From: Mesorhizobium sp. SARCC-RB16n
Lineage (GTDB): Bacteria; Pseudomonadota; Alphaproteobacteria; Rhizobiales; Rhizobiaceae
NCBI RefSeq assembly: GCF_008520305.1
Contig: NZ_ML703279.1
Location: 1 to 64,000, forward strand
Length of the DNA stretch: 64,000 nucleotides
Direction: 5' to 3'
Shown: positions 13,623 to 58,465 of the stretch, in pieces
Numbering within the stretch: position 1 is the first letter of the stretch
Layout: each line of letters starts with the position of its first letter
Made by a program: the position numbers and the translations under genes
Notes under the pieces: generated by a model
The model's input: the letters and a program-made list of their open reading frames with translations, nothing else
Told to the model about the DNA's origin: nothing
The model's database searches: none

Positions 13623-13637
13623 CGAGGAGTCTGCTGG

Positions 13638-40757: not shown

Positions 40758-41813
40758 TTAACCCAGCCCTCGACCGATCCAGGCGGGCACGGTCAATCGA
40801 AGCTGTTGCGGTGAGACTCCGTGTATGTTCCTGAAGCATTTCGAGAAATGCGAGGAGGATACGAAGCCGCTCGCCATGGCTACGTCGACCAGTGGTAGCC
40901 CGGTGCCTTCGATCAGCCGCTTTGCATGGTCGATCCGGAGACTGAGATAGTGCTTTGCGGGTGTGACACCCACATACGTTCCAAATAGTCGCTCTAGCTG
41001 GCGTCTGGAAACACCAATGCGCTTCGAAATGTCGGACATCGGTATGGGAGACTCCATATTCTCCTCCATGACCCTGATGGCTGCGACGAGGCTCTCGCTC
41101 ACGCCAGCAAAGGCGATGCCTGAGGGGCCCGTCTGACGGTTTGAACCAGAACGCTGCCCGTTTACCGTCGCATGCCTGCACACTTCCTGTGCGATGAAGG
41201 CGCCAGCTTCCGTTGCGATAAGGTCGACCGCGAGGTCGAACGCCGCCAACTCGCCGGCGCAGGTCGAAAATTGCCCATCTTTTACAAAGAGAGAGTCGCG
41301 TATGCGCGGCTGGTTGAAGACTTCGGAAAAAGCAGCGAGGCGCGACCAGTGGATCGTGCAGCGCGTACCTGCCAAAAGGCCGGTCTGCGCAAGCAGCCAT
41401 GTCGCCGTCCCAAAGGCTGATAGCGCAACTCCACGGCGGGCCATCAGGCGCAGAAATCCGTTGAATTGTGGCGTCAGCTGCCGCTCGACCGGTTCGCCCG
41501 AAACAATGGCGAGTTGGCCAGGTCTCCCCTCGTCCACTTGGGAGGCCAGCTCATCTATGTTGACGTCGACTGAGACCGTGAGGCCGTTGGCACCTTCGAC
41601 TGGCCGCGAATCCAACGCCGCAATCCGCCACCTAAACAGCGGCAATTTTGATACGGAGTTGGCGAGGCGGAACGGCTCTAAATAAGCGTGAAGCGCCAGA
41701 TGCGAGAACCCCGGCAGCACCAGAACCACGAGATCAAATGGCCGGTCGCCTATCGCCGAACTCCCCGGCGTGGCCAGCGACCTCATCCCGGCGAGATTAG
41801 CGGGCGCGTTCAT
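40758..41813 (-). CDS. GlxA/GbdR-like AraC-family regulator with DJ-1/PfpI domain
   Basis: 351-residue transcription factor. The N-terminal DJ-1/PfpI (type 1 glutamine amidotransferase-like) domain is about 25-190 (FDLVVLVLPGFSHLALHAYL ... FGTATWLLAQTGLL). A double helix-turn-helix AraC domain is about 240-335 (ISKRIGVSRRQLERLFGTYV, VDVAMASGFVSSSHFSKCFR). ATG 41813 overlaps the stop of the epimerase-like gene (ATGA), which decides the start. This architecture includes GbdR and CdhR, regulators of betaine and carnitine catabolism. Its co-translation with the enzymes upstream supports betaine-responsive control, an inference. Confidence 0.85.
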   Translation of the reverse strand: MNAPANLAGMRSLATPGSSAIGDRPFDLVVLVLPGFSHLALHAYLEPFRLANSVSKLPLFRWRIAALDSRPVEGANGLTVSVDVNIDELASQVDEGRPGQLAIVSGEPVERQLTPQFNGFLRLMARRGVALSAFGTATWLLAQTGLLAGTRCTIHWSRLAAFSEVFNQPRIRDSLFVKDGQFSTCAGELAAFDLAVDLIATEAGAFIAQEVCRHATVNGQRSGSNRQTGPSGIAFAGVSESLVAAIRVMEENMESPIPMSDISKRIGVSRRQLERLFGTYVGVTPAKHYLSLRIDHAKRLIEGTGLPLVDVAMASGFVSSSHFSKCFRNIHGVSPQQLRLTVPAWIGRGLG

Positions 41814-42922
41814 CAAGGCCCGTAAATGGCTATCGGCTTGCCGAACATGCCGGGCTCGGGTTTCACACCGAGCCCTGGCCGTTGCGGCACGGCGATGTGG
41901 CCCTTGTCGATAATGACCGGATTCTTCCCGTCGAAATGGCCATTGATGTATTCTTGGGCGATCCAGGCGCCTTCCATGCGGCTCGGCTCCACTGTCGCCG
42001 CGAGATGAACGCAGGCCGCCGCGATGATGTCGCCGCCCCAAGCATCGTCGCAGCTGTGCGGCAGCGAGCGGACGGTGCAGAGGTCGCGCACCGTCGTCAT
42101 TTTCGTGAGGCCGCCAAGGCGGGTGACCTTGAAGCCGAAGCCGTCGGCGATGCCCAGCGAGATTGCCCTGAGCACCGCGTTTTGGTCCTCCGTGCTCTCG
42201 TCCAGATAGACCGGATGCGTCATGCGGCCCTTCAGTGTCGCGATCTCGTCCATGGTGTTGCAGGGCTGTTCGAAAACGAACGAGATCGCCTGGCAGAGCC
42301 GGTCGAGATGGATCGCGGCGGCCACGGTAAGACCTCTGTTGCCGTCCACGGCGATGCGCGCCTTGTAGCCAACCGCTTCCCAGACCTTGTGAATGACGGC
42401 GACGTCCTCCTCGAGATTACGGCCGCCGATTTTCACCTGGAGCCGTACGTAGCCTGTTTTTACTTTCTCGGTGGCAATGCGGGCGGTTTCTTCCGGCGAA
42501 CCGACGATCAGGGAATAGTAGGCGGGCACGCGGTCCGTAAGCGCACCGCCCAAAAGCGTCGATACCGGTACGCCCAACTTCAGACCAAGCAGGTCGAGAA
42601 AGGCCATGTCGAACGCGGCCTTGGCATAGCCGTGCCCGTTGAGCCGCTCGTCCATCTGTTTCGCGAGACGCCTGATCGAGGCGATCTCCGAGCCGATGAG
42701 CCCCGGCGCGATTTCGGCGATGGCGGCACGCGCGCCGAGCGCGTGATGCGGCTGGTAGACCGGGCCGATCGGGCAGGTTTCGCCCCACCCGACCAAACCG
42801 TTGTTCGCAACTATTTCGACAAGGGTGCTGTCGAGCGTCTCCACGTCGTCGCTCGCCATGCGATAGGCCCCGCCTTTGACGGGCAACTGCGCCGTGTAGA
42901 CGTTGATGCGATCGATGCGCAT
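41813..42922 (-). CDS. Enolase-superfamily enzyme, hydroxyproline-betaine 2-epimerase-like (HpbD) or cis-3-hydroxyproline dehydratase-like
   Basis: 369-residue mandelate racemase/muconate lactonising-type protein. Two acid/base lysines lie at 164 (LQVKIGG) and 265 (FKVTRLGG); metal ligands are Asp193 (AVDGN), Glu218 (FEQPC) and Asp241 (YLDES). GLVGWGETCPIGPVYQPHHA and HSCDDAWGGDIIAAACVHLA closely recall 4R-hydroxyproline betaine 2-epimerase from Pelagibaca. The ATG at 42922 lies two bases after the MttB-family stop; a TTG at 42928 is less likely. Placement between an MttB-like gene and a GbdR-like regulator supports a betaine substrate. Cis-3-hydroxy-L-proline dehydratases are the nearest alternative. 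Confidence 0.75.
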   Translation of the reverse strand: MRIDRINVYTAQLPVKGGAYRMASDDVETLDSTLVEIVANNGLVGWGETCPIGPVYQPHHALGARAAIAEIAPGLIGSEIASIRRLAKQMDERLNGHGYAKAAFDMAFLDLLGLKLGVPVSTLLGGALTDRVPAYYSLIVGSPEETARIATEKVKTGYVRLQVKIGGRNLEEDVAVIHKVWEAVGYKARIAVDGNRGLTVAAAIHLDRLCQAISFVFEQPCNTMDEIATLKGRMTHPVYLDESTEDQNAVLRAISLGIADGFGFKVTRLGGLTKMTTVRDLCTVRSLPHSCDDAWGGDIIAAACVHLAATVEPSRMEGAWIAQEYINGHFDGKNPVIIDKGHIAVPQRPGLGVKPEPGMFGKPIAIYGP

Positions 42923-42924
42923 GC

Positions 42925-44478
42925 TCAATAGTCTTCGTTCAATGCGTCGACCGCGGGAATTTGGCGCGATCGCCGGTCGATATAAGCGCGCAGCTCCTCG
43001 TCTTTGGCGATGTCGAGCGTCGGCTCTTCATAGTCGGCCAGCAGCCGACGGGCATGTTCAAGAGCCCGCTGCTTGATGTCCTTGGAACCATCGGCTTTCC
43101 ACTGTTCGATCGAGTTGTTGTCGAAAAGCTTTGGTATGAAAAACGCGCGTTCGAAATTAGCCTGCGTATGCGGATGGCCTAGGTAGTGCCCGCCCGGGCC
43201 GACGTCACGCACGGCAGCCAGCGCTTCGTCGAAGTCGTCCCACTGAATGCCCTTCGTCATGCGATAGCCCATATCGCACACCTCGGCGTCGACGACGAAC
43301 TTCGCGATCGAGCAATGCATACCAGCTTCGTTCCAGCCCGCAGAATGCCAGATATAATTGGCGCCCGACATCAGCACCGCCATCATGGTCATAGCGCTCT
43401 CATAGCCAGCCTGCGCATCGAAGACCTTCGCGCCGCCGAGTAGGTTCGATGTGCGCCATGGGACGTTGTAGCGTCGCGCCATCTGGCCGATCATGAAGTT
43501 CATCAACGAAATCTCGGGCGTTCCTGCCATCGGCGCGCCTGACTGCATCGATACGGTCGAAAGGTAGTGCCCGTAAATTGCAGGGCAGCCCTTGCGGATC
43601 ACCTGCGTATAGGCGAGCGCGGACAGCGCTTCGGCATTGAGCTGCGCGACAGCGGCCGCCGTAGAGGCCGGCGTGTTCGCGCCGCCGAGAACGAAAGGCG
43701 AGCAAAGTACGGGCTGATTGCGTCGACAGAAAGCTCGCATCGCGCCGAGCATAACCTGATCCCAAACCAGCGGCGAATTGCCGTTGCAATTGCCTGTGGT
43801 GACCGCGTGGGTCTCCAGGAAATCTTTGCCGAAAAGGATCTCGCACATGTCGAGCACATCCTCGGCATTTTTGGGGGAAGTGGTCATGCCCATGAAGATC
43901 TTATCGGAGTGCTTCATTGACGAATAAGTAATGTGCAGGTGCCGATGCGCAACGACGAGATCCATCGGTTCGACGATATGATGCGCCGATGAATGTAGCG
44001 CCGGCATCATGTGGGCCAGCTTATGGAAGGTGCCGAGGTCGGCGATGGTCGGCCCGCGCCTGACATCATCGAGGTCACGCATGTAGGGCGCGCCGGTCAT
44101 CGGCACGAAAATCGAATTCGGTCCGCCGAGCTTGACGTTCTTTGCCGGGTCGCGCGCGAAATACTCGATGTTGGGAGGGATGGTCTTGATAAGGTCCATG
44201 ACCAGCCCGCGGTCGAGGTAGACGCGGTCGCCGGCACGCACGTCGGCGCCGGCCCTTTTCCAGTCCTCGATCGCGATCGGATCGCGAAACACCACGCCCA
44301 CATCTTCGAGGATCGCAAGAGAAGCCTCGTGGATCCGCTCGACCTGCTCGGCATCCATTGGCTCGACGACCGGCAGGCCGCGTTTCAGCGTCGGCAGCAT
44401 GTCGATCTTCGGCGTCATGCGGATCGTCCGCCGTGCGTCCCGCCCCCCTCTACGAGAAGCTTGCATTTGAGCAGTCAT
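42925..44478 (-). CDS. MttB-family (non-pyrrolysine) methyltransferase-like protein
   Basis: 517-residue protein of the trimethylamine methyltransferase (MttB) superfamily: ERIHEASLAILEDVGVVFRD near 45-64, FVPMTGAPYMRDLDDVRRGP, MTTSPKNAEDVLDMCEILFG, and the C-terminal FFIPKLFDNNSIEQWKADGS. The gene reads through without an internal TAG, so no pyrrolysine is used. ATG 44478 has an ideal GGAGG. Studied non-Pyl homologues demethylate glycine betaine, proline betaine or carnitine onto a corrinoid protein. No corrinoid protein or reactivase is seen in the window. Coupled with the epimerase-like gene. Confidence 0.82.
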   Translation of the reverse strand: MTAQMQASRRGGRDARRTIRMTPKIDMLPTLKRGLPVVEPMDAEQVERIHEASLAILEDVGVVFRDPIAIEDWKRAGADVRAGDRVYLDRGLVMDLIKTIPPNIEYFARDPAKNVKLGGPNSIFVPMTGAPYMRDLDDVRRGPTIADLGTFHKLAHMMPALHSSAHHIVEPMDLVVAHRHLHITYSSMKHSDKIFMGMTTSPKNAEDVLDMCEILFGKDFLETHAVTTGNCNGNSPLVWDQVMLGAMRAFCRRNQPVLCSPFVLGGANTPASTAAAVAQLNAEALSALAYTQVIRKGCPAIYGHYLSTVSMQSGAPMAGTPEISLMNFMIGQMARRYNVPWRTSNLLGGAKVFDAQAGYESAMTMMAVLMSGANYIWHSAGWNEAGMHCSIAKFVVDAEVCDMGYRMTKGIQWDDFDEALAAVRDVGPGGHYLGHPHTQANFERAFFIPKLFDNNSIEQWKADGSKDIKQRALEHARRLLADYEEPTLDIAKDEELRAYIDRRSRQIPAVDALNEDY

Positions 44479-44850
44479 ATCGGCCTCCAAAGATTGCGGC
44501 TCAAATCTGAGCCGCTTGGCACTATTGCCGCCCGCAGCGGCTTTGACCAAATGCAAAAGTCTCACGCGGCTGTTGACTAAAGCGCCGGTCACGAGATGTT
44601 GGCGCGTGCTGAATGGAGCGAGCACACCCGGGTTCACGCACCGAACGCCGTAGTCAGTAAGCCGAAGGAGCTTCGGCCCAATAAGCCTGGTCGGCGTTGC
44701 TGACGAGGTCCCGGGCGTTGGATACGACATTGGGCGATGAGCCAGCCCCGACTGCAGCGGATGTTTAAGCAACCGCCAGACTGTGCTCCGCGAAACGTGC
44801 CCAGAAATAGCGTGTGCCGTGTATGCTGCGGTCGCTCGTCAGATGTCGGC
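44479..44850 (-). other. Spacer upstream of the MttB-family gene, no gene seen
   Basis: About 370 bp between the monooxygenase stop and the MttB-family ATG. The MttB frame remains open upstream, but these codons are not family-like. A promoter for the MttB/epimerase/regulator operon is expected here; none is obvious. Confidence 0.4.
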
Positions 44851-46524: not shown

Positions 46525-46870
46525 GAGCTGCTTCCTTTGCAAGTTTTCGGCTGAGTAGGCGTCTCTAAGCTGCCAAAAAAAACTGCGATGCGCACGCACC
46601 AAAAAACTCAACCGCCCCATACGTTTTTTTCCGGACCGCTTTTGGAAACGGAGTGCTAAGAGGGTGTTCAGGGAACGGCTTCTCAGACTTGATCGAGCGG
46701 CTCCGCTGAAACGCGCCTCCCGTGCTGTTCGAGACATGATCTCGCCCGTGGACGTCAGAATTTAAACGAGAGCGAGCGTCCAGCCGGGTCGCATGGAGGC
46801 GGTACGGAGTATTGATATCGGACCGGGTCCGACGAGAGAGCCAATAAAATCACAAAGGGAGAATAGGCCA
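46525..46870. other. Divergent intergenic region between the monooxygenase and proX
   Basis: About 345 bp separating two divergent genes. The ProX ribosome site (GGGAGAA) lies at its right end. A T-rich patch near 46567-46575 (TGCCAAAAAAAACTG) is notable. No reading frame of its own is credible. Likely holds promoters for both directions. Confidence 0.4.
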
Positions 46871-47839
46871 ATGAAGTCGCTGTTTCGTTCCATCCTGCTA
46901 AGTTCTGTTTTGTGCTCACCGACGGCCTTTGCTGGCGAAAAAGTGATACCGGCGTGGGACGGCATCACAGAAAACCTCATGCAGACTTATATCGTGGATG
47001 AGGGCTTGCGCCAGCTGGGATACGATGTGGCAGATCCCATCCAGCTCCAGATCCAACTGGCTTATGTTGCGATGGCAAAAGGAGATGCGACATTTTTTGC
47101 AGCCTACGCGGAGCCGATCCACGACCAGTACCTGAAGGAAAACGGCGGGGAAGCCGTTCTGACCCGGCTTGGGCATATTTCGGCGGATAACATCCAGGGT
47201 TATCTGATTGACAAGAAAACAGCGGATGCAACTGGTATCAAGTATATCGAGGATCTGAAGGACCCGGCGAAGGCGAAGCTGTTTGACATCGACGGCAACG
47301 GCAAGGCTGATCTTTATGGATGCGAGCCTGGGTGGGGGTGTGAGGTTATCATCGAGCACCACCTCGACGCCTATGGATTGCGTGACACCGTTGAGGAGAA
47401 GCAAGGTGGATATTTCGCCATTATTCCCGATGCGATCGAACGCATCAAGGAAGGCAAGCCGACGCTTTACTACACCTGGACCCCGCTATGGGTCTCCAGC
47501 ATTCTGCAGCCCGGGAAAGACGTTGTTTTTCTGAACGTCAAGAAGACCGATCTGCCCGCCGGCCAGACCAGCACGGAAATACCCGGTCTGGGCAATCTTG
47601 GTTTCCCGATGATCCAGCAGCGGATTGTGGCGGCGACGTCATTTGTCAAAGGCAACCCCTCGGCCAAGAAACTGTTTGAGCTCGTTGCGATTCCGATCGA
47701 AGACCTGAATGCGGAAGACCTGCGGATCTACAAAGGCGAGAACTCCAATGACCAGATCAAACAGCGCGCCCAAGAATGGATTTCCCAGAACAAGGCGAAA
47801 TGGGATGGTTGGATCGCTCAGGCGAAAGCTGCACATTAG
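46871..47839 (+). CDS. proX: ProX-type glycine betaine/quaternary amine ABC importer, binding protein
   Basis: 322-residue OpuAC-domain binding protein. An N-terminal signal peptide (MKSLFRSILLSSVLCSPTAF) is visible. LYGCEPGWGCEVIIEHHLDA near 150 is typical of ProX-type proteins, and YYTWTPLWVSSILQPGKDVV holds aromatic residues of the kind that cage quaternary ammonium groups. The start is taken at ATG 46871, not the upstream frame opening at 46793, because it gives the signal sequence and has GGGAGAA upstream. The matching ATPase and permease lie at 49638-51638 on the opposite strand, separated by two SDR genes. Confidence 0.87.
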   Translation: MKSLFRSILLSSVLCSPTAFAGEKVIPAWDGITENLMQTYIVDEGLRQLGYDVADPIQLQIQLAYVAMAKGDATFFAAYAEPIHDQYLKENGGEAVLTRLGHISADNIQGYLIDKKTADATGIKYIEDLKDPAKAKLFDIDGNGKADLYGCEPGWGCEVIIEHHLDAYGLRDTVEEKQGGYFAIIPDAIERIKEGKPTLYYTWTPLWVSSILQPGKDVVFLNVKKTDLPAGQTSTEIPGLGNLGFPMIQQRIVAATSFVKGNPSAKKLFELVAIPIEDLNAEDLRIYKGENSNDQIKQRAQEWISQNKAKWDGWIAQAKAAH

Positions 47840-47867
47840 CTGACAGCCGACCCGCAGGAGAGTTCAA

Positions 47868-48617
47868 TTGATTGAAAACAGCCTTCGAGACCAAGTGGTC
47901 ATATTGACGGGCGCTGCCGGTGGGATCGGCAGCGCTATCGCTCGGACGTTTCATCGGTTGGGCGCGCGCATATTGCTGGCTGACTATGATGAACAGGGCG
48001 TATCGAGCCTAGCGTCATCGCTGGATCCTACAGGCGAGCGGGTGATATCCGTCGCCTATGACGCAAGTAAGCCGGCGGATGCTGACGCTGCGGTGTCGAC
48101 ATGCGTCGCCCGTTTCGGCCACATCGACCACCTCGTTCCGGCAGCAGCAATTTTCGAAGATCAACCATTCGCCACTATGACAGACGCACAGTGGCGCAGA
48201 ACGATGTCGGTAAACCTCGATGGAGTATTCTACATCTGCAGGCGATCAATTCCTCACATCAGGCCTGGGGGAACAATCGTAACCATTGCGTCATCTGCTG
48301 CTCATGAGGGCTGCTCGCCCCAGCATGTTCATTACGGGGCTTCGAAAGGGGGAGTGCTGGCATTCACCAAATCTCTGGCGAGGGAGCTTTCACCGAACAT
48401 ACGGGTAAATACAGTATCTCCCGGGACCATCGACACTCCGATGGTGGCGGACCTTCTGAGGCAAAAGGGCGACAAATTCCTGTCTATTACGCCGGCGGGT
48501 CGCTTCGGTACCGGCGAAGAAGTAGGCGATGCGGTGGCATTCCTGTGTAGCAACGCTTCGAGCTATATTATGGGGCAGACCATTCACGTGAACGGCGGAT
48601 CATATATGGGAGGCTGA
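47868..48617 (+). CDS. Short-chain dehydrogenase/reductase (after proX)
   Basis: 249-residue classical SDR. NAD(P)-binding TGAAGGIGSAIA (about 14-25), catalytic Ser in ITIASSAAHEGC context, and Tyr/Lys in HYGASKGGVLAFT (YxxxK) are visible; the C-terminal MGQTIHVNGGSYMGG is typical. The start is TTG 47868 with AGGAG seven bases upstream; no in-frame ATG fits. It lies 28 bp behind proX, so it is co-transcribed. It probably oxidises a hydroxyl group of the imported compound or of a degradation product; a carnitine- or hydroxyproline-betaine-related alcohol is conceivable. Confidence 0.83.
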   Translation: MIENSLRDQVVILTGAAGGIGSAIARTFHRLGARILLADYDEQGVSSLASSLDPTGERVISVAYDASKPADADAAVSTCVARFGHIDHLVPAAAIFEDQPFATMTDAQWRRTMSVNLDGVFYICRRSIPHIRPGGTIVTIASSAAHEGCSPQHVHYGASKGGVLAFTKSLARELSPNIRVNTVSPGTIDTPMVADLLRQKGDKFLSITPAGRFGTGEEVGDAVAFLCSNASSYIMGQTIHVNGGSYMGG

Positions 48618-48700
48618 GGCCCCAGGCCCGTTGTCGTGCTCATCGGCAATGCGAATTCCTCATAGAACTCTGCTCCCCCCTTGACGACGGCCGGGCCCCC

Positions 48701-49465: not shown

Positions 49466-49637
49466 TGCTTGCTCCTGCGTTCGTGGGGGACTCGATCATT
49501 GGATCTGCAAAGAAGAGCTCTCGGCCCGTCGGTCTCGGCGAGGACCTTTGATGGAGGTTTGACATTCGATCTAATCGAAAGTCTCAGCGTGAGTTGGCCT
49601 CCCGACGATCGCGGACTTTCAAACCTCGACGTTACCC

Positions 49638-50666
49638 TCAGCCTCGAATGCCAAGCAGAAGGTCACGACGGGAAATCATTCCCACCGGTCGATTGTCGTC
49701 CATAACCGTTATGTCTCCACTATGATGGGTGGCCAACTCGATGACGGCACCGATCTTGTCGGTAGCTGCTACAGTGGCCCCATTGTGATGCGCCATGGTC
49801 GAACAATCGGCGATAGGCCTCATGATCTTTCGAGCGGTCACAAGCTCAAGCCTTGAAATGCCCTTCACGAAATCCGCCACATACTCGTCCGCGGGCTCGG
49901 TGACAATTTCCTCCGGAGTGCCAACCTGGACGAACCGGCCATCTTTCATGATTGCGATATGAGTGCCGAGCCTGATCGCTTCATCGAGGTCATGAGTGAT
50001 GAAGACGGTCGTCTTTCTGACGACTTTCGAAAGTTCAAGGAATTGCTGCTGAAGCTGTCGACGGATCAACGGATCGAGGGCAGAAAACGGCTCGTCCATC
50101 AAAAGTATCTCTGGATCGGCCGCCATGGCCCGAGCCAACCCGACACGCTGTTTCATGCCGCCTGACAACTCATCCGGGAACCGCGTACCCCACTCTTCCA
50201 GGCCTACGAGCTTCAGCTTCTCCTTTGCCGTATCCATGCGCTGAGCCTTACCGACGCCACGCAGTTCCAAGCTCAGGGCCACGTTGTCCTGAACGCTGCG
50301 GTGGGGCAACAGCGCCATATTCTGAAATACCATCCCTACGCTCGTTGAGCGAAGGGCTCGCAGTTGAGAGTTGCTCAAGGCACCTACATTGCGGCCTGCG
50401 ACAATGATCTCGCCGTCGGTGGGCTCCACCAAACGGTTGATGTGTCTTATCAGGGTCGACTTGCCCGATCCGGACAGACCCATAATGCAAAAAATTTCGC
50501 CCTCACGGACTGAGAAGGAGACGTCGGCAACTGCGGTGACCGCTCCGTACTGCTTCAACACATCGGACTTGGAAAGGCCTTGCTCCCGAATGGCGTGAAG
50601 CGCTTGCTTCGCCTTATTTCCGAAGATTTTCCAGATACCGGAACACTGAACGACGGGATTGGTCAT
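49638..50666 (-). CDS. proV: ProV-type glycine betaine/quaternary amine importer ATPase
   Basis: 342-residue ATPase. Walker A is GLSGSGKS, the signature is LSGGMKQRVGLARAM, Walker B is ILLMDEPFSALDP, and the switch His is in FITHDLDEA. The N-terminal extension KAKQALHAIREQGLSKSDVL is characteristic of ProV/OpuAA. A short C-terminal CBS-like part (IGAVIELATHHSGDITVMDD) may sense ionic strength. It follows the permease gene by 9 bp. Together with ProW and ProX it would import a betaine. Confidence 0.9.
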   Translation of the reverse strand: MTNPVVQCSGIWKIFGNKAKQALHAIREQGLSKSDVLKQYGAVTAVADVSFSVREGEIFCIMGLSGSGKSTLIRHINRLVEPTDGEIIVAGRNVGALSNSQLRALRSTSVGMVFQNMALLPHRSVQDNVALSLELRGVGKAQRMDTAKEKLKLVGLEEWGTRFPDELSGGMKQRVGLARAMAADPEILLMDEPFSALDPLIRRQLQQQFLELSKVVRKTTVFITHDLDEAIRLGTHIAIMKDGRFVQVGTPEEIVTEPADEYVADFVKGISRLELVTARKIMRPIADCSTMAHHNGATVAATDKIGAVIELATHHSGDITVMDDNRPVGMISRRDLLLGIRG

Positions 50667-50675
50667 TGGAAACCT

Positions 50676-51638
50676 TTACCTCCGATCCAGTCGCCGGGCG
50701 TTCACTCGGGATGGCCGAAAGAGTCGGATGGCATGTTGAAGTGCCGCAGCTGGGCCGTGTTCCCAGATCTCCCCTGGACGCTTTCGAGGCTGGGCGAGCG
50801 CTTGTGTAATCCGATCCAGAATGATCGCCAACGCGACGATACCGAGGCCTCCAATGCTGGCAAGCCCAACATCGAGACGGCCAATGCCACGAAGCACCAT
50901 TTGGCCGAGTCCGCCCACCGCGATCATTGAGGCGATCACCACCATCGAAAGGGACATCATCAGTGTCTGATTGACGCCTGCCATGATGGTCGGCAGCGCC
51001 AGAGGCAGTTGAGCTTTCCATAGCAATTGACGATCAGTGGCGCCAAAAGCGCGCATGGCTTCATTGACCTCTTCTGATACCTGACGGATGCCCAAATAGG
51101 TTAAGCGGATAACCGGAGCGACTGCGAAGATTACGGTAACGATGACGCCCGGCACGTTACCAATGCCGAAAAGCATGACAACGGGAACGAGATACACGAA
51201 AGCCGGGATTGTTTGCATGCCGTCAAGAATCGGCCTGAGAATCGCGTACAACAACTCTGATCTGGTCGACAGAATCCCCAGAGGAATGCCGATGGCCACC
51301 GAAAAGATCAGTGCAGTGAGCACGATCGACAGTGTCGTCATGGTTTCCGGCCACACCCCGATAAAGCCTACAAACAGGAGAATGGCCACCAGCGCGGCCG
51401 CCAGCCGCCAACTTGCGAGTTGCCAAGTCAGCAGCATGACGACCAAAATGACCAAGGTCGGCGGAACCGTCGTCATGAAATTGGTGAGCGACTGCAAGAC
51501 TGTGTCGAACGGCGCCTTAACTGTTTGGAAGAACGGTCGATAGTTCTCGACCATCCAACCCAACCCCTCGCTTACCCATGAAGCGAGCGGCAGCTTCCCG
51601 CAATCAAACGGATTCAACAGGCCACAGCCGTTCATCAT
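50676..51638 (-). CDS. proW: ProW-type glycine betaine/quaternary amine importer permease
   Basis: 320-residue inner-membrane permease. The N-terminal soluble stretch (about 1-55) is followed by five or six membrane spans beginning TLVILVVMLLTWQLASWRLA. The coupling loop is EVNEAMRAFGATDRQLLWKA near 190, and GVNQTLMMSLSMVVIASMIA follows, both strongly ProW-like. Upstream of proV in a two-gene operon. The genes for permease plus ATPase and the binding protein are transcribed towards each other from the two sides of the SDR pair. Confidence 0.9.
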   Translation of the reverse strand: MMNGCGLLNPFDCGKLPLASWVSEGLGWMVENYRPFFQTVKAPFDTVLQSLTNFMTTVPPTLVILVVMLLTWQLASWRLAAALVAILLFVGFIGVWPETMTTLSIVLTALIFSVAIGIPLGILSTRSELLYAILRPILDGMQTIPAFVYLVPVVMLFGIGNVPGVIVTVIFAVAPVIRLTYLGIRQVSEEVNEAMRAFGATDRQLLWKAQLPLALPTIMAGVNQTLMMSLSMVVIASMIAVGGLGQMVLRGIGRLDVGLASIGGLGIVALAIILDRITQALAQPRKRPGEIWEHGPAAALQHAIRLFRPSRVNARRLDRR

Positions 51639-52043
51639 AGTTCCCCGTTTAGCTCGTCAGCGGTTCACTCTCAAAACTACCACGAGTTCCCCGCAAGAAG
51701 AGGCGTAAAAAAGTAGTGTGACGGATGACTTTATTTCGGCGATCGCTCGTTCTGCGGCAAACAAACGGTTCAACTTAGTGGGGGCCGAGCTTTCAATCCT
51801 AAATCCGGAGGGTAGCGCCCGATCATTGCACGCGGCTGACTCGGTGTGATGATGTCGTCGAGATCGTTTGTCGCTCGATGACCGGCGCCGAGGCACTGGC
51901 CAGCGATGCGCTTAGAGTTGCGTCTATCAAGGTAAGGGTTGAGCGGCAGCTCAGCGATCTTCCTCTCACAATGGTCGATAAAAGCGCGAAAAGCGACGAA
52001 GTGTGGCACCCGCAACGCCAGCGGTTGGCCGGCCTTGGCTTTT
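51639..52043. other. Spacer between proW and an SDR gene, no gene seen
   Basis: About 400 bp; short frames on both strands lack ribosome sites and families. The proW promoter should lie here, but nothing stands out. Confidence 0.4.
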
Positions 52044-52808
52044 TCACCTTACAGGCAGCGGAAGCTTCTTGGTACGGCCGCCATCGATGACGAACGTCTG
52101 GCCGGTGACGAATGCGCTTTCTTCAGAGGCCAGCCAGACAGCAAGACTGCCGATATCTCTCGGTTCCCCTAGGCGCCCGACCGGATGCATCAGAAGGAGT
52201 TCCCTCCGGAAGGAGTCGTTATCTGGCATGCTGTCGATGTACACTTCACTGAGGTCGGACATGATCCAGCCTGGGGCAATGGCATTGCAGCGGATCCCTT
52301 CGTGCCCATGGTCCACGGCGATCGCTGCCGTGAAGCCGTGAATGCCGGCTTTCGATGTCGAATATGCAGGATGACCCGGATTGGACGCCAGCCCTTCGAT
52401 CGAACCTATATTGACAATGCTTCCGCCACCCCGCTGCCGCAGATGAGGCAGCGCAGCCTTCGTCAACAGGAATGGGGCTTTCAGATTGATGTCCATCATC
52501 TGATCCCAGTCCGCTTCGGTCATTTGGTCGACGGTTTTCTCGAACATGATGCCGGCGTTGTTGACGAGGACGTCCAAGCCGCCGAGCCGTTCCGCGATGG
52601 TATCCACGGCGGCAGCAATTTCCCGGCCGTTCGCGAGATCGGCTTTCACGTAAATGACGCGATGATCGAGCATCGCCTCAGGAGGCGCGTTCCTCTGCAC
52701 AATGACGACCTGTGCCCCTTCTTCCGCAAAGCGCTCCGTGATGCCCGCGCCGATGCCGCGCCCGCCGCCGGTTATGATGGCGATCTTGCCCCTCAGTCTG
52801 TCAGCCAT
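52044..52808 (-). CDS. Short-chain dehydrogenase/reductase (paralog of the 60921 gene)
   Basis: 254-residue SDR from ATG 52808 (MADRLRGKIAIITGGGRGIG). Cofactor loop TGGGRGIGAGIT, NNAG in VLVNNAGIMFEK, Ser in IVNIGSIEGLASNPGHPAYS and Tyr/Lys in YSTSKAGIHGFT. The C-terminus VTGQTFVIDGGRTKKLPLPV nearly repeats that of the 60921 protein. Divergent from the LysR gene at 53259, the usual arrangement of a regulator with its target. The upstream GTG/ATG at 52817 is possible. Probable target of that LysR. Confidence 0.85.
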   Translation of the reverse strand: MADRLRGKIAIITGGGRGIGAGITERFAEEGAQVVIVQRNAPPEAMLDHRVIYVKADLANGREIAAAVDTIAERLGGLDVLVNNAGIMFEKTVDQMTEADWDQMMDINLKAPFLLTKAALPHLRQRGGGSIVNIGSIEGLASNPGHPAYSTSKAGIHGFTAAIAVDHGHEGIRCNAIAPGWIMSDLSEVYIDSMPDNDSFRRELLLMHPVGRLGEPRDIGSLAVWLASEESAFVTGQTFVIDGGRTKKLPLPVR

Positions 52809-53258
52809 GGTGATCATGCCCGCGTAAATGACTGGCGCATGGCGGCGTCCAGTCGCGGGGGGAAAGCACTCGGCTGAAAAATGCGCGAGATATGTCGGGC
52901 CACGTCTCGCGAGACAGCAGATTTCTTCGTGGTGCCAGTCATAAGCTTGAACTATTTCCTGAACGGACGGTCCCGATCATACTCTCCGAAAGTTGGAAGA
53001 AGACCAGTGGCTCGGCCCTGCAAAAGACTCATCCCCTTGTTGAGTTGCAGGGCGCGCAGATTGGCCCAACGTTACGGCGACGGATACTAATTGAATGGCG
53101 TCGCAGATCAGCAAGGCTGGTTCGTCGCGTTGCTATAAATTAGTCGGGAAATGGTTGTATAGAAGCCGTCACCGGCTGCAAAGGTTTTCTGACGCCCCGA
53201 GCATCTCTTGCTCAAAGGCTTCCGCCGCGCAATCATCCAGCCGTTTGGGGATCTTGAG
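52809..53258. other. Divergent intergenic region between SDR and LysR genes
   Basis: 450 bp between divergent genes, where LysR-type operators (T-N11-A) are expected. ACTGGCGCATGGCGGCGTCCAGT at 52831-52853 holds ACTGG and CCAGT at its ends, a partial dyad that could be such a site. No gene is credible in it. Confidence 0.4.
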
Positions 53259-54170
53259 ATGGTTCGCCGCTATTACGACCTGCCGTCACTGACCGCCCTG
53301 GCGGTCTTCGAGGCGTCCGCCAGGCATTTGTCGTTCAAACTGGCGGCTGCGGAACTAAACGTCACACCTGGTGCCGTCAGCAGGCAGATCAAAGCCATTG
53401 AGGAGGAGATCGGGGTTCCCCTGTTCGTGCGGCTTGGGACCGGCGTGATGCTTACCAGCGCAGGCGAAGATCTCTATGCAGTGCTGGCAAGTGGCTTTTC
53501 CAAGGCATCCGAGGTTGTCAGAACCGTTAAGCGTGGCGATCGATCTAAGAATGTAACTGTCGCCTGTTCAGATGCATTTGCATCAATGTGGTTGATACCG
53601 CGCATGCCCGAATTCTGGACTCGGTTTCCCGATATTGCGGTCGACCATCTCATCTCTGACAATGCCCGAGACTACCGGCGCGCCGAAGTAGAGCTGCGCA
53701 TCAGGTATGGGTTTGGTTCATGGCCCGACGAAACCACCGAAACGCTTTTCGACGACCTCATCTATCCCGTTTGTGGCCCCGGCTTCGCACAGGTGCACAG
53801 AGACGCCACGGCCGAATCCTTGCCCGAGCTCCCGCTATTGCACGTCAATTGGGTCGATCCTGACTGGGCCGACTGGGACGAGGTGCTACGACGGGCAGGA
53901 ATTCCTCACGGAGCACCGCGTGGTCGCAGGTTCGGCAAGTTCTTCGTGACGTTGCAGGCTGCCCAAGCCGATCAAGGCGTGGCCGTTGGCTGGCATCGAC
54001 TGGTCCATCCGCTGATAGAAGAGGGCAAGCTGGTCAGGATTACCGATCTCGAATTACCTGCCCCGGGAGGATATCATCTTACCTGGAACGACAATCGGAC
54101 CTTGTCGCCTGCGGCCGAACTGTTTCGGAAATGGTTGAGAGAGGCCGCAGCCGAGGAACGGACCACTTGA
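53259..54170 (+). CDS. LysR-family regulator (GcvA-like)
   Basis: 303-residue LTTR. The winged helix-turn-helix is at about 10-65 (LTALAVFEASARHLSFKLAA, LNVTPGAVSRQIKAIEEEIG). A periplasmic-binding-protein-like effector domain follows (VTVACSDAFASMWLIPRMPE onward). The ATG at 53259 gives the family-typical MVRRYYDLPSLTAL; an upstream ATG at 53208 adds 17 non-family residues. It is divergent from the SDR at 52044 and ends 4 bp from the converging FAD oxidoreductase gene. A truncated paralog lies at 62328-62694. It probably regulates the SDR or the flanking catabolic operon. Confidence 0.87.
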   Translation: MVRRYYDLPSLTALAVFEASARHLSFKLAAAELNVTPGAVSRQIKAIEEEIGVPLFVRLGTGVMLTSAGEDLYAVLASGFSKASEVVRTVKRGDRSKNVTVACSDAFASMWLIPRMPEFWTRFPDIAVDHLISDNARDYRRAEVELRIRYGFGSWPDETTETLFDDLIYPVCGPGFAQVHRDATAESLPELPLLHVNWVDPDWADWDEVLRRAGIPHGAPRGRRFGKFFVTLQAAQADQGVAVGWHRLVHPLIEEGKLVRITDLELPAPGGYHLTWNDNRTLSPAAELFRKWLREAAAEERTT

Positions 54171-54174
54171 CGGG

Positions 54175-55497
54175 CTAGAGCTCGCGGCCAGCGCGCTTCT
54201 GCATCGCCCAAAGCTTCAGCGGCGCTCCGATCGACATAAGTGGTTCCGGATAGAGCCGAGCTGGAGCGGGCTCGTTCAGGGCGTCCGCGACCATCGCTTC
54301 GTTGCTGCCGGCGGCGAGGTCGGCAGCTAGCATCCCGTACAGCGTGCCCTGCACCGTTCCCAGCCCGTTGCAGCACCCGGCAACGAATACCCTCTCCTCA
54401 ACCTCGCCAAATGCCGGCGCGGAATTGAGAGAAAGACATAAAAGGCCTCCCCATCGAAACTCCATGGGTATTTCGCCCAGCATCGGGAAGCGCACCTGGA
54501 ACGACCGATCGTGCGCCGCGCCGATTCGATTGATCTGCTTTTTACTCGTCGACATATCGGGATTGTAAGTGAAGGTGTTGCGGACGACGATGCGGTCGCC
54601 GATGCGCCGGATGGTCGATCCCATCGGGTCAGCCGGGATCAAGCCCCAATGCGGATCGCCGCCCAGGTCCGCCTGTTCGCTCTTGGAAAGCGGCCTCGTC
54701 ATGCTGGCAAAGGTAAAGACATGCAGCAGACGCTTCTTGAAGAGGCCGAAGCTTTCGAGATGGCCGTTGACTGTCAGGATCAGCCGCGGTGCGGTGATCT
54801 CGCCCTCGGCTGTTTTCACAATATGCAGCTTGCCGGTCTGCACCGACGTGACCGCAGAGTCTTCGAATATCTGCACCCGACCCGACAAGCCCTCGGCGAG
54901 CCCTCTAATGAAGCCGGCCGGTTGCGCCATCACCGTCCCCGGCGTGAAAGTGCCACCAACGAAGAAGTCACTTCCCGTGACTTTCTTCAGCTGCGGTCGG
55001 TCGAGCCGCTCGAACGGCTCGCCAATTCGGGCCAGGTGATTTTCGAACTCGCGCAGAACGGCAAGCCCGTGATCGGTGGCAGCTCCGTGGAACTTGCCAG
55101 CCCGGACGAAGAACGGCTGCAAGTCGTATTCATCCGCAGCCGAGGCCGAGAACTCGATAGCGGCGCGGTTCATGCGGATGCGCTTGCGGTCATGGTCCTG
55201 GCTTCCACCGTAATTCTCGCCAGCTAATTCGTGCGGCAAATCGATCATGAAACCGGAGTTTCGTCCCGCCGCACCCCAGCCAACACGCTGGGCGTCGACC
55301 ACGACGATGCGATCTTCCGGAACCAATTGTGTGAGGCGCCGCGCGGCCGCGAGGCCGGCGAAGCCGGCCCCGATGATGACCCAGTCGGCTTCATGGCGGC
55401 CGCGCAGCACCTCATGCGCCTTGGGAGGCGGTAGAATTCCGTACCAGCCTGACATGTTGATGTCGGCAGGCGTTCTTAGTGCCTGATGCACGCTCAT
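54175..55497 (-). CDS. FAD-dependent amine/amino-acid oxidoreductase (DAO family, PuuB-like)
   Basis: 440-residue D-amino-acid-oxidase-fold protein. FAD-binding ADWVIIGAGFAGLAAARRLT near 37-56, then VGWGAAGRNSGFMIDLPHEL near 73, which is typical of PuuB-like and N-methyl amino-acid oxidoreductases. The C-terminal GCCNGLGTVQGTLYGMLAAD binds the flavin. It is the third gene of a DapA-ALDH-oxidoreductase operon, 8 bp after the dehydrogenase. In the setting of a betaine locus it could oxidise an N-methyl-proline or D-hydroxyproline to the pyrroline; a polyamine-type substrate is the alternative. Confidence 0.82.
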   Translation of the reverse strand: MSVHQALRTPADINMSGWYGILPPPKAHEVLRGRHEADWVIIGAGFAGLAAARRLTQLVPEDRIVVVDAQRVGWGAAGRNSGFMIDLPHELAGENYGGSQDHDRKRIRMNRAAIEFSASAADEYDLQPFFVRAGKFHGAATDHGLAVLREFENHLARIGEPFERLDRPQLKKVTGSDFFVGGTFTPGTVMAQPAGFIRGLAEGLSGRVQIFEDSAVTSVQTGKLHIVKTAEGEITAPRLILTVNGHLESFGLFKKRLLHVFTFASMTRPLSKSEQADLGGDPHWGLIPADPMGSTIRRIGDRIVVRNTFTYNPDMSTSKKQINRIGAAHDRSFQVRFPMLGEIPMEFRWGGLLCLSLNSAPAFGEVEERVFVAGCCNGLGTVQGTLYGMLAADLAAGSNEAMVADALNEPAPARLYPEPLMSIGAPLKLWAMQKRAGREL

Positions 55498-55505
55498 GGC
55501 TTGGC

Positions 55506-57032
55506 CTAGTCGATGGCGCGCGAGACCTTCGGGTCGGAAATGTCCGCCCAGATGGTCTTGACTTCGGTGTACTGGTCGTGGGCGTGGAGCGACTTGTCGC
55601 GTCCGCCGAAGCCAGAAAGCTTGAAGCCGCCGAACGGGGTCGAGATGTCCCCTTCGCCGTAGCAGTTGATGGTCACCGTGCCGGCGCGGATGTCGCGCGC
55701 GATGCGATGTGCCTTGCCGAGATTGGCGGTGAAGATTGAGGCGGCAAGCCCATATTGCGTATCGTTGGCGACCCGAACGGCCTCGTCGGCGTTGGCAACC
55801 TTGATGACCGACAGCACCGGTCCAAAGATCTCCTCGCGCGCGATCGTCATTTCCGGTGTGACATCGTCGAACACGGTCGGTTCGATGAAATAACCCTTGC
55901 CGTGTTTGTGCGCATTGCCGCCCGCTACAACTTTGGCGCCTTCCGCGCGGCCCTTCTTGATGTAGCCCATGATGCGGTCGAACTGTTCCTTAGACACGAT
56001 GGCGCCGAGCCGGTTGCTCGGATCCAGCGGCTCGCCCAACGGCCATTCGGTAAGCTTGTGCAAAACCGTTTCGACCAGGCGATCTTTAATCCTCTCGTGC
56101 GCGATCAGGCGCGAATTGGACGAGCAGTTCTCGCCCATGTTCCAGAAGATGGCCTGGGTCACATGCTGAGCGACAACGTCGAGGTTCTCGGCGTCGTCGA
56201 GCACGATGCACGGGTTCTTGCCGCCGCATTCTAGCACGATGCGCTTCAGGTTGGATTTGGCGGAATACTCCAGGAATTTCCGGCCGACATCGGTTGACCC
56301 GGTGAAGGCGACCATGTCGATGTCCGCATGCATGCCGAGCGCCTTGCCGGTGATCTCGCCTGGACCGGTGACGATCTGCAGAACACCCGGCGGCAAACCG
56401 GATTCATACGCCAACTCGGCAATGCGCAGCGTCGACATATTGGTCTGCTCGGCCGGCTTGACAACGACGGAGTTGCCGGTTGCGAGCGCCGGGCCGATCT
56501 TCCAGGCCAGCATCAAGATCGGAAAATTCCAGGGCAGAACGCATGCGACCACGCCAAGCGGCTGGCGCACGATCAGCGACACGACATCGTCGCCTGAAGG
56601 CGAAGTCTGACCGTATACCTTGTCGGCGGCCTCTGCATGCCATTCCAGGCAGTGCAGCGCCTCGGGGATGTCTATGGTTTCGACGTCGTAGATCGGCTTG
56701 CCGCTTTCGAGCGTCTCGAGCACGGCGAGCTCATGGGCATTGCACTCCATCAACTTGACGAGCCGCCGCAGCACCCGCTTACGCTCGCTTGGATGCGCCC
56801 GCGACCAAACGCCCGATTCAAACGCCAGCCGTGCCTTCTCGACAGCGAGATCCACGTCGGCCTGACCGCATAATGCTATCCGCGCGATGACCTGCCCCGT
56901 CGCAGGATTGATTGTCTCGAAAGTCTCCCCGGATTGGGCCGCCCGCGCCTTGCCGTCGATCACCGCGTTGGTTGGCAGGGGCAGGCTGTCTGCCAGGTTC
57001 TGGTACTCATCACGCGTTAATAGCGATGACAT
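55506..57032 (-). CDS. NAD-dependent aldehyde dehydrogenase (PuuC-like / 2-oxoglutarate-semialdehyde type)
   Basis: 508-residue aldehyde dehydrogenase. Visible: LPWNFPILML (about 166-175), VVKPAEQTNMSTLR near 190, FTGSTDVG near 243, catalytic Glu268 (LECGGKNP) and Cys303 (GENCSSNSRL). ATG 57032 overlaps the DapA-family gene by 23 bp in another frame, so the two are tightly coupled. Sequence style is PuuC-like. In the hydroxyproline pathway the semialdehyde made by the DapA-family deaminase is oxidised to 2-oxoglutarate by an ALDH; the operon order suggests that role. Confidence 0.82.
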   Translation of the reverse strand: MSSLLTRDEYQNLADSLPLPTNAVIDGKARAAQSGETFETINPATGQVIARIALCGQADVDLAVEKARLAFESGVWSRAHPSERKRVLRRLVKLMECNAHELAVLETLESGKPIYDVETIDIPEALHCLEWHAEAADKVYGQTSPSGDDVVSLIVRQPLGVVACVLPWNFPILMLAWKIGPALATGNSVVVKPAEQTNMSTLRIAELAYESGLPPGVLQIVTGPGEITGKALGMHADIDMVAFTGSTDVGRKFLEYSAKSNLKRIVLECGGKNPCIVLDDAENLDVVAQHVTQAIFWNMGENCSSNSRLIAHERIKDRLVETVLHKLTEWPLGEPLDPSNRLGAIVSKEQFDRIMGYIKKGRAEGAKVVAGGNAHKHGKGYFIEPTVFDDVTPEMTIAREEIFGPVLSVIKVANADEAVRVANDTQYGLAASIFTANLGKAHRIARDIRAGTVTINCYGEGDISTPFGGFKLSGFGGRDKSLHAHDQYTEVKTIWADISDPKVSRAID

Positions 57033-57954
57033 TTTCGGCAGCCTTCTTCTGGGGTTTCGCGGTGATAGAGGCAATGACTGCCTTGAGCGTGCGGATCGTC
57101 GTCTCGAGTTCCCGCTTGTGCTGTTCGTCGAGCTCCCGCATCGGCCGGCGCACGGGACCGGCCGGCAAGCCGGCGAGCTCGCAGCCGAACTTGATGCTCT
57201 GCACAAACTTGCCGCCCTGTTCGAGAAGGCGCATCAGCGGCAGCAGCGCCGACATGATCCTACGTCCCCTGGTGAAATCCTTCTCGATGACGCAGGCCTC
57301 ATAAAGCGCGATGTGCTCGGCCGGCAGGCAGTTGCCGGCGCCGCAGACCCAGCCCTTGGCGCCCCAGGCGAAGAACTCGAGGGCCTGGTCATCCATACCG
57401 CAGAACAGATCGATATGCGGATAGTCGCGCGCCAGGGCATGCAGCTGATTCATGCTGCCGCTGGATTCCTTGATGGCGCAGAAATTGCTGCTCCGGCCGA
57501 CCCGGTCCAGGAACTCGAGGTCCATCATAGTGCCGGTGCGGCCGGGATAATTGTACAGCATCACCGGTAGGTTGGCGGCCTTGTCGATCGCCAGCGCATG
57601 ATTGGCCAGTTCGAGCTGCGTGGGGACGGCGTAGTACGGCGCGCCGATCAGTATGCCGTTATACTTCAGGTCCTTGGCGACCAGCGCATATTCGATGCAG
57701 TCTTCGGTCCGGATGGCGCCAACGCCGGCGATCAGCGGCACCTTGCCCTTAACCATGGTCTTGGCAAGCTTGAGCAGACCGACGCGTTCGTCCCTCGATT
57801 GGGCATAGTACTCGCCGGTCGTGCCTCCGACGATGATGCCGTGTACCCCCGACGAAACCAGATGCTCGACCATCACGCACAAACCGTCGCGGTCGATCGA
57901 TCCGTCAGAGTGAAACGGCGTGGTGACGGGCGGAATAATGCCTTTGAAGGACAT
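57010..57954 (-). CDS. DapA-family lyase/deaminase (candidate pyrroline-4-hydroxy-2-carboxylate deaminase)
   Basis: 314-residue DapA/NAL-superfamily barrel. GGTTGE (43-48) binds the substrate carboxylate, Tyr134 lies in LYNYPGRTG, and the Schiff-base Lys162 in AIKESSG. The first gene of its operon, it starts at ATG 57954 with GGAG upstream, not at the open frame 58113. The C-terminus CELAGLPAGPVRRPMRELDE resembles catabolic family members rather than the lysine-biosynthetic enzyme. With the following ALDH and FAD oxidoreductase it would fit hydroxyproline breakdown; a KDG-type dehydratase/aldolase is an alternative. Confidence 0.8.
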   Translation of the reverse strand: MSFKGIIPPVTTPFHSDGSIDRDGLCVMVEHLVSSGVHGIIVGGTTGEYYAQSRDERVGLLKLAKTMVKGKVPLIAGVGAIRTEDCIEYALVAKDLKYNGILIGAPYYAVPTQLELANHALAIDKAANLPVMLYNYPGRTGTMMDLEFLDRVGRSSNFCAIKESSGSMNQLHALARDYPHIDLFCGMDDQALEFFAWGAKGWVCGAGNCLPAEHIALYEACVIEKDFTRGRRIMSALLPLMRLLEQGGKFVQSIKFGCELAGLPAGPVRRPMRELDEQHKRELETTIRTLKAVIASITAKPQKKAAENVIAINA

Positions 57955-58465
57955 CTGCCTAGCTCCAGATCTGGCTACAGGCTCGTTGTTATATGTAAGT
58001 CGACGAGCGTGAGCAGCCGAAATAAAATCACTTGGCAAGTTACTGTTTTGCAGCACCGACGGTGCCATCCAAGATTCGCGACATGCGTGGTACCGAGAGC
58101 GAGTAGCAACCATCTGCCCGATCCCGACTCAGGAATGTGGCGGCTCGTTATTCCGGCTGTCGTCGGGTCCGCTCGTCCGGAAGCGGCGTATGGGGTATAT
58201 TCGCTGTTTAGTCCGGCAAGTAAGGGGGTCACCGGCCAACAACAACGCACCCGCCGTGATCAGAGTAACATGGCTGATGGTCCGGTTCCCGCTAACGCGA
58301 AAGCATCGCTTCGATCTCGACCAGACGGAAGTGAACGGCCGTCTGGTTTGCCCGAGTTATTCCAGAAATCTTTTTGGCGTCCTCCTCAGCACCCCCGCGC
58401 CGGTAAAGGGATAGCACGTCCGTTCCGCCTCTTTTGCTCCATCGTACTCAGAGTGTTCGAAGATA
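57955..58465 (-). other. Spacer upstream of the DapA operon, no gene seen
   Basis: About 510 bp between the E1 beta stop and the DapA-family ATG. Long frames crossing it are shadows of neighbouring genes. The DapA operon promoter should lie at its left end; nothing distinct is seen. Confidence 0.4.

Follow-up and report, generated by a model that had tools for sequence, protein, structure and literature searches.

A putative corrinoid-dependent route for hydroxyproline-type betaines around an MttB-family methyltransferase in Mesorhizobium sp. SARCC-RB16n

In Mesorhizobium sp. SARCC-RB16n, a stretch of 64,000 nucleotides (contig NZ_ML703279.1, positions 1 to 64,000; here called the window) encodes an epimerase resembling the hydroxyproline betaine epimerase HpbD, a homologue of the methyltransferase MttB and a GbdR-like regulator, accompanied by a betaine importer and by a group of genes of the kind that degrades hydroxyproline. 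This raises the question whether these genes act together, and whether a corrinoid-dependent methyltransferase could take the place of a Rieske-type enzyme in the demethylation of a betaine. Most likely, they form a single system that takes up a hydroxyproline- or proline-type betaine, epimerises it, demethylates it in a corrinoid-dependent step and breaks it down. It is probable that this is a dispersed, co-regulated catabolic set for 4-hydroxyproline betaine, possibly proline betaine, and the MttB route of betaine demethylation is a well-supported prediction. The DNA is close to Mesorhizobium, as MttB is 94-95% identical to the proteins of M. loti UFLA 01-765 and Mesorhizobium sp. ORS3324. 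All genes named in a first-pass annotation of the stretch were found in the window; the central ones are (identities refer to a Rhodobacter sphaeroides cluster described below):

42925..44478, minus strand: MttB-family (non-pyrrolysine) quaternary amine:corrinoid methyltransferase, 517 amino acids (PF06253, clade support, conserved start)
41813..42928, minus strand: HpbD-like (hydroxy)proline betaine epimerase, start at ATG 42922 or TTG 42928 (best PDB matches, D294/W322 signature)
40758..41813, minus strand: GbdR-like regulator of the AraC/GlxA family, 351 amino acids (NF052371, 217.6 bits, cut-off 480)
57010..57954, minus strand: DapA-superfamily enzyme, deaminase candidate (PF00701; 63% identical to DapA)
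55506..57032, minus strand: PuuC-like aldehyde dehydrogenase, ALDH (PF00171; NF007352, 531 bits, below the cut-off of 850)
54175..55497, minus strand: FAD-dependent oxidoreductase of the DAO family with a glycine oxidase/sarcosine oxidase fold (fold comparison)
46793..47839, plus strand: ProX betaine-binding protein (NF008334, 381.8 bits, cut-off 215)
49638..50666, minus strand: ProV ATPase (TIGR01186, a subfamily model, 345.8 bits, cut-off 326.6; 58% identical to ProV)
50676..51638, minus strand: ProW permease (NF008196, 400.1 bits, below the equivalog cut-off of 439; 52% identical to ProW)

On the minus strand mttB (ATG at 44478) is followed by the epimerase gene and then by the regulator gene, and neighbouring genes overlap or stand apart by no more than 2 bases. 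If the epimerase starts at TTG 42928, the overlap with the mttB stop codon (42925-42927) is 2 bases, and if it starts at ATG 42922 this stop codon lies 2 bases before it; the ATG of the regulator (41813) and the epimerase stop have one base in common. The translational coupling of the three genes proposed in the first-pass annotation is consistent with these distances, and the regulator is present, although it can be called only GbdR-like since its score misses the model cut-off. The ProXWV importer and the operon of DapA, ALDH and FAD oxidoreductase (the triad in the following), which lie head to tail at 54175-57954, were also located as described. Between the MttB group and the triad lie ProX, ProV and ProW as well as a Baeyer-Villiger monooxygenase (BVMO) and short-chain dehydrogenases/reductases (SDRs). 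A tblastn search of the window at E 1e-3 gave no match to Rieske-type demethylases (two queries), the Rieske reductase or HpbA/OYE-type flavoenzymes (two queries), in agreement with the earlier remark that no Rieske-type demethylase is seen; queries for MtgC, MtgD, RamA, proline racemase and GntR were likewise without a match.

MttB matches PF06253 as a whole protein (705.3 bits, positions 1-500 of 500). Its frame is open, with no internal stop and no in-frame TAG, and therefore contains no pyrrolysine codon, as expected for the non-pyrrolysine homologue that had been annotated. The start was placed at 44478 and not at that of a longer TTG frame because of a conserved GGAG...ATG and the promoter block described below. 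In a sample of 80 loci, the best 80 of at least 580 relatives confirmed in a genome scan and leaning to near kin, MttB is conserved at 74-95% identity over at least 491 residues. A tree was calculated from 71 rows, comprising the window, 35 random rows of the 96 with at least 74% identity and all 35 lower rows, a few rows being the same gene from overlapping loci. It places the clade, together with four rows of 72-73%, behind a single branch with support 100/99; next to it stand the long-branched L171 and an Aminobacter-type clade, and five long rows are of unsure place. No paper was found, judged by title or by the start of the abstract, that gives this clade a substrate. A salt-induced mttB of Mesorhizobium alhagi, which may differ from that of the window, was dispensable for salt resistance according to the available part of the report (PMC4302635).

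The neighbourhood of this clade is distinctive. Within the 80 loci DapA was found in 57, ALDH in 58 and the FAD oxidoreductase in 59; all three lie near MttB in 54 and at least one of them in 61. HpbD is near MttB in 31 loci and directly downstream in 25 (26 counting a short piece in L002). The triad occurs in 0/20 control loci carrying other MttB members (42-54% identity, all from one order, three stretches incomplete), L171 showing only DapA and FAD oxidoreductase relatives of 28-32%. Plasmid pB of R. sphaeroides 2.4.1 encodes in a row MttB, HpbD, two SDRs, the FAD oxidoreductase, ALDH, DapA, GntR, ProVWX and a regulator of the GlxA/GbdR type, with identities to the window ranging from 34% (GbdR) to 77% (MttB). 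Since the arrangement recurs in other Alphaproteobacteria and in some metagenome-assembled genomes of Gammaproteobacteria, it is not due to chance. In the family of Ruegeria atlantica HpbD (E 1e-80) was detected in 17/295 genomes at 18 places, 12 of which have this MttB in the fetched stretch; four stretches end at contig ends. On pSymA of Sinorhizobium meliloti AK57 (L187, 2590-15600) the whole cluster is matched, with MttB, ALDH, FAD oxidoreductase and GbdR each in two pieces, as if broken.

The epimerase belongs to the enolase superfamily. Its PDB matches are led by 4e8g (454 bits), 2pmq (401) and 4h2h (399), with 4izg/4j1o also among the best and 4mgg following at 231 bits; 4e8g/4izg/4j1o and 2pmq/4h2h are HpbD structures. 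It is 55% identical to the annotated hpbD product of Paracoccus pantotrophus. An alignment of 46 rows, in which the window appears twice, combined annotated plasmid copies with 41 HpbD-family frames taken from the window and the 80 loci. The window enzyme carries K166, K267, D195, E220, D243, D294 and W322, of which K166/K267 are presumably the catalytic lysines, D195/E220/D243 the metal ligands and D294/W322 the residues that bind the quaternary nitrogen. The signature K166/K267/D294/W322 is also present in the other aligned HpbD rows of at least 50% identity; eight paralogues at 31-35% have Q/E and L/S in place of D294 and W322, and a fragment in L035 covers none of these positions. This signature speaks against a pure 3-hydroxyproline dehydratase, and the cis-3-hydroxy-L-proline dehydratase model NF043002, still the best NCBIfam model, scores 262.1 bits, below its equivalog cut-off of 500. 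On both grounds the assignment as a dehydratase only was rejected, and the HpbD-like epimerase of the first-pass annotation is retained. Two 77% relatives of HpbD (G094 C34:228497-229603 in L148 and G161 C1:1229071-1230177 in L147) each contain one in-frame TGA. No match of more than 70% identity to the Pelagibaca bermudensis epimerase was found among 394 genomes of the family.

Shared promoter elements connect the operons, and two motifs were recognised at the following sites, scored by position weight matrix (PWM):

44552..44582, minus strand: motif B, conserved promoter element upstream of mttB (26-base core 44552-44577)
53019..53044, minus strand: motif B, second copy upstream of the gene for SDR3 (PWM 32.3)
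51707..51738, plus strand: motif A, palindromic operator-like site upstream of proW (PWM 47.4)
58018..58049, minus strand: motif A, copy upstream of dapA (PWM 43.9)

In an alignment of five mttB upstream regions the block CTTTAGTCAACNNNNGCGTGAGACTTTTGCA, called motif B, is conserved. Allowing at most 3 mismatches, it precedes mttB in 13/13 loci L001-L013 and in L084, and it precedes the SDR operon in the window, L001, L005, L007 and L008. Motif A stands before dapA in the window, L003, L006, L010 and L084, before proW in the window, L012 and L013, and before mttB in L001, L004, L007 and L008; further sites are at L002 15188, L003 13845, L012 12818 and L084 5294. The matrices were built from sites outside the window (for A 11 of the 14 found; for B 12 distinct sites, three weak ones being dropped). 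The window scores were 47.4, 43.9 and 28.8 for motif A and 40.9 and 32.3 for motif B, against a best of 12.7 and 19.0, respectively, in 15 Markov-shuffled windows; since the window was among the sequences in which the motifs were initially recognised, this scoring is a check of strength and not a blind discovery. The palindrome core is absent from the scanned R. sphaeroides, Leisingera, Agrobacterium and other non-Mesorhizobium loci, apart from one weak site in L012. Because four relatives have both motifs before mttB, the mttB/SDR pair can be joined to the dapA/proW pair, and we infer co-regulation of the four operons. The third motif A copy in the window (33470-33501, score 28.8) has the perfect palindrome core AAAGTCA-N9-TGACTTT and precedes an oligopeptide ABC transporter and a fragment of a solute-binding protein, so that peptide import may belong to the regulon. 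Control by a catalogued riboswitch was rejected, with zero Rfam matches at gathering scores in the window.

The triad was predicted to be of hydroxyproline-degrading type in the first-pass annotation. The superfamilies are right and the genes lie head to tail, but DapA, ALDH and the FAD enzyme reach no curated hydroxyproline name; ALDH scores 385.1 bits against the alpha-ketoglutaric semialdehyde dehydrogenase model NF042993 (cut-off 770), and the PuuC model, its best, also remains below cut-off. The predicted fold of the FAD oxidoreductase fits glycine oxidase, sarcosine oxidase, D-arginine dehydrogenase and L-proline dehydrogenase equally, and N-demethylation and ring oxidation are therefore not separable by fold; judged from this model, the enzyme may oxidise either the ring or an N-methyl group. 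A tRNA-Val called by ARAGORN at 55414-55493 was rejected as it falls within the frame of this enzyme. In other genomes, too, the triad has neighbours of this kind, which supports the preferred reading: in Agrobacterium a 4-hydroxyproline epimerase and a betaine ABC transporter adjoin it, in Rhizobium ruizarguesonis it has such a transporter next to it and an HpbA gene about 6 kb away, and in Paracoccus denitrificans it is flanked by genes for a LysR regulator and a betaine transporter.

The methyl-accepting partners would be encoded elsewhere in the genome. The first-pass annotation held that an MttB route in an aerobic rhizobium without a corrinoid protein nearby would be new; the absence of that neighbour is in itself no novelty, as precedents exist. 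For Eubacterium limosum, the available part of the report describes MtpB with a shared corrinoid protein, MtqC, encoded elsewhere (PMC8604678), and a corrinoid protein encoded at a distance is likewise described for aerobic glycine betaine demethylation in Ruegeria, which needs MtgC and MtgD. There, mutants of mtgC and mtgD were studied, and the MtgB candidates were put forward from proteomics and homology, as far as the accessible portion of the paper goes (Mausz et al., PNAS 2025; PMC12478193). In line with the corrinoid and reactivase search suggested earlier, 25 genomes drawn from the 80 loci were examined, and 25/25 encode an MtgC-like protein, 80-96% identical to that of Aminobacter, as well as a RACo/RamA C-terminal domain. 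Among 150 genomes of the order, the MttB superfamily (E 1e-3) was found in 65, MtgC (E 1e-60) in 67 and both in 63 (Fisher p ~1e-34, kinship not corrected); the window clade of MttB (at least 75%) is present in 8/150, all with MtgC, and HpbD (E 1e-80) in 10/150, every one with some MttB and MtgC. M. caraganae encodes MtgC, DUF1638, a MetF-like piece, a pterin-binding protein and RamA within about 10 kb, and these genes match the component set described for aerobic glycine betaine demethylation by Mausz et al. MtgC, MtgD and RamA are thus expected, by inference from relatives, in the window's own genome. On two Aminobacter plasmids a corrinoid gene lies between those for MttB and HpbD (72%), in the company of genes for a substrate-binding protein and an OYE-type flavoenzyme; the one MttB compared is 52% identical and belongs to the sister clade, and the one corrinoid protein scanned has 219 bits to the MtgC model NF047996, below the cut-off of 370. 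The 'cobalamin-dependent protein' of plasmid MesoLj131c2 was rejected as partner, as it matches the C-terminus of methylmalonyl-CoA mutase.

Gene content, conservation, the residue signature of HpbD, the shared promoter motifs and the co-occurrence of MttB with MtgC were observed here, and from them we infer every reaction and substrate of the following scheme. ProXWV would import the betaine, and HpbD would convert trans-4-hydroxy-L-proline betaine to cis-4-hydroxy-D-proline betaine. MttB would then transfer one N-methyl group to Co(I) of a shared corrinoid protein of MtgC type, whose gene lies outside the cluster, and from this protein MtgD would pass the methyl group to tetrahydrofolate, with RamA rescuing oxidised cobalt. 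For removal of the second methyl group, the local FAD oxidoreductase or an HpbA/StcD-type flavoenzyme encoded at another place in the genome might be responsible; HpbA relatives (E 1e-100) in 18/19 genomes, of only 45-50% identity in G025, G247 and G367, are candidates for this second demethylation. Finally, the FAD oxidoreductase, the DapA-like deaminase and the aldehyde dehydrogenase would lead from cis-4-hydroxy-D-proline to 2-oxoglutarate. The MttB-based pathway of the first-pass annotation thereby survives in its core, as epimerase, non-pyrrolysine MttB, importer and triad recur together with shared motifs; its novelty does not extend to the missing corrinoid neighbour, and a Rieske enzyme coexists in relatives.

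Several observations weigh against one dispersed system for 4-hydroxyproline betaine. HpbD is missing over thresholds in 49/80 loci (L002 with its short piece is counted here), and 10/80 lack HpbD as well as all three triad genes; among the latter are several short contigs, but L049 and L074 are of full length. In the Ruegeria atlantica family 6/18 HpbD places are without MttB in the fetched stretch. Only 4/10 HpbD genomes of the order hold this MttB clade (G001, G069 and G086, and also G062, where it is on a contig other than that of HpbD); in G094 and G161 the MttB near HpbD is of the sister clade, and these two with G130 make up the 3/10 that reach at best 53-54% (54% in G130, again on a different contig), and G063, G138 and G169 hold only MttB genes of 42-43%. 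The window set is interrupted by the BVMO and two SDRs, with matches in 0/80 loci at 40% / 60% identity, the GntR gene present in 50/81 loci has no homologue there (tblastn, E 1e-3), and no single motif stands upstream of all four operons. The lack of a curated hydroxyproline-pathway name for ALDH and DapA, and the Rieske enzymes considered below, count on the same side.

The strongest competitor, which we regard as unlikely, assumes that MttB acts on proline betaine (stachydrine) and not on hydroxyproline betaine, that HpbD racemises proline betaine and that the triad serves free or imported 4-hydroxyproline within the same regulon. HpbD reportedly acts on both betaines (Kumar 2014), and in Agrobacterium CFBP5877 the triad adjoins a 4-hydroxyproline epimerase, with no MttB in the 19 kb shown. 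Proline betaine is moreover the substrate of MtpB, a characterised MttB homologue, according to the available text (PMC8604678). Against this stands that all triad genes lie near this MttB clade in 54/80 loci versus 0/20 for other MttB genes. Less probable still is that the clade acts on another quaternary amine, e.g., glycine betaine, carnitine or an aromatic betaine, and that HpbD and the triad are neighbours for other reasons. The 49 loci without HpbD would fit this, as would the up to seven PF06253 genes, with mostly unknown substrates, that the available part of the paper reports for Ruegeria and other marine bacteria (PMC12478193). However, the MttB clade is a separate one, HpbD is directly downstream in 25/80 loci, and in Aminobacter it also adjoins an MttB of the sister clade that has a corrinoid gene of its own.

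The Paracoccus hpb Rieske query matches 3vca (794 bits), which we take to be Stc2. An Stc2-type Rieske enzyme of at least 48% identity to it occurs in 22/38 genomes with this MttB, and beside the cluster in the six loci L002, L009, L011, L021, L043 and L128; 16/38 have none at that level, some of them with matches of 33-38% and G001 with a 41% partial one. An MttB route and a Rieske route, set against each other in the first-pass annotation, are thus not mutually exclusive, since 22 genomes hold both. That an Stc2-type Rieske enzyme elsewhere in the genome is the real demethylase, with MttB minor or vestigial, is suggested by these 22 genomes and six loci but is very improbable, as seven of the 16 Rieske-free genomes (G001, G025, G228, G247, G283, G367 and G374) have HpbD and MttB in one stretch and as MttB is kept at high identity over nearly its whole length in the 80 loci.

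The preferred reading is retained, in which HpbD, MttB, importer and triad most likely serve one hydroxyproline- or proline-type betaine. A wider proposal, on which we are nearly evenly divided and lean slightly to the negative, is that the distinct MttB clade is a major aerobic cobalamin-dependent hydroxyproline betaine demethylase in Alphaproteobacteria, built on the same MtgC/MtgD core that makes methionine, that in a large proportion of the genomes with HpbD it takes the place of the Rieske enzyme, and that it may act in R. sphaeroides 2.4.1, a model strain for betaine use. If true, one of many orphan aerobic MttB homologues would gain a substrate, aerobes would demethylate proline-type betaines without oxygen chemistry, and rhizobial betaine use would be tied to cobalamin and methionine metabolism. 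As R. sphaeroides 2.4.1, a tractable laboratory strain, has the whole cluster on a plasmid, the idea is open to genetic test. It is not wholly new because of the published precedents of Ruegeria MtgC/MtgD and of MtpB with MtqC.

Further genes of the window lie beside or around these operons:

52044..52817, minus strand: SDR oxidoreductase SDR3 (53% identical to SDRb of the R. sphaeroides cluster)
53208..54170, plus strand: GcvA-like LysR regulator (at least 70% identical in 12/80 loci)
60921..61649, minus strand: SDR oxidoreductase, the nearest relative in the window of the SDRb found near HpbD elsewhere (65% identical to R. sphaeroides SDRb; at least 55% in 27/80 loci)

Before SDR3, at 52942, a second SDR gene is reduced to its first codons; L007 has a full-length SDR there. 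Genes for the alpha and beta subunits of a 2-oxoacid dehydrogenase E1 (58466-60587) adjoin the dapA operon; no E2/E3 was named by Pfam scans, which covered only part of the frames. At 5049-16956 a cluster for uptake and breakdown of ectoine/5-hydroxyectoine was found, with EhuB, EhuA, EutB and EutC above NCBIfam cut-offs and, in addition, M20, M24 (DoeA-like, below cut-off), an aminotransferase and an aldehyde dehydrogenase. A tandem pair of ATP-grasp L-amino-acid-ligase-like genes is located at 34924-38496, and transposase and integrase genes (DDE, IS91-like, phage-integrase type, rve and IS110) surround the clusters at 1055-4712, 20935-21774 and 39410-40201. Overall, the window looks like an osmolyte-use island.

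Compared with known systems, the proposed route combines features of several. With the Paracoccus hpb pathway it shares an ABC importer for betaines and an epimerase of HpbD type, whose active-site signature is identical. They differ in that the P. pantotrophus locus has the Rieske enzyme and its reductase, together with HpbA, beside HpbD and no MttB in 29 kb, whereas the window has MttB and no Rieske enzyme. The 4-hydroxyproline degradation pathway (4HypE, DAAO, DHDPS, ALDH) has the same three downstream superfamilies, as described in the available part of the report (PMC4113996), while the epimerase of the window is of the enolase-superfamily betaine type and its ALDH is PuuC-like. Eubacterium limosum MtpB is likewise a non-pyrrolysine MttB homologue acting on a proline-type betaine with a corrinoid protein encoded elsewhere; its host is an anaerobic acetogen, for which the accessible text describes no epimerase or triad, and the two are likened by description and not by sequence (PMC8604678). 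The MtgBCD system of Ruegeria pomeroyi shares the PF06253 enzyme and an MtgC-type corrinoid protein, DUF1638, MtgD and RamA, which in relatives of the window are encoded away from the cluster, SPO2108/SPO2134 being likened to the window MttB by description and not by sequence. In the portion of the paper available, that system serves glycine betaine and the substrates of other homologues are left open (PMC12478193), while the window MttB is linked to HpbD and to a triad of hydroxyproline type.

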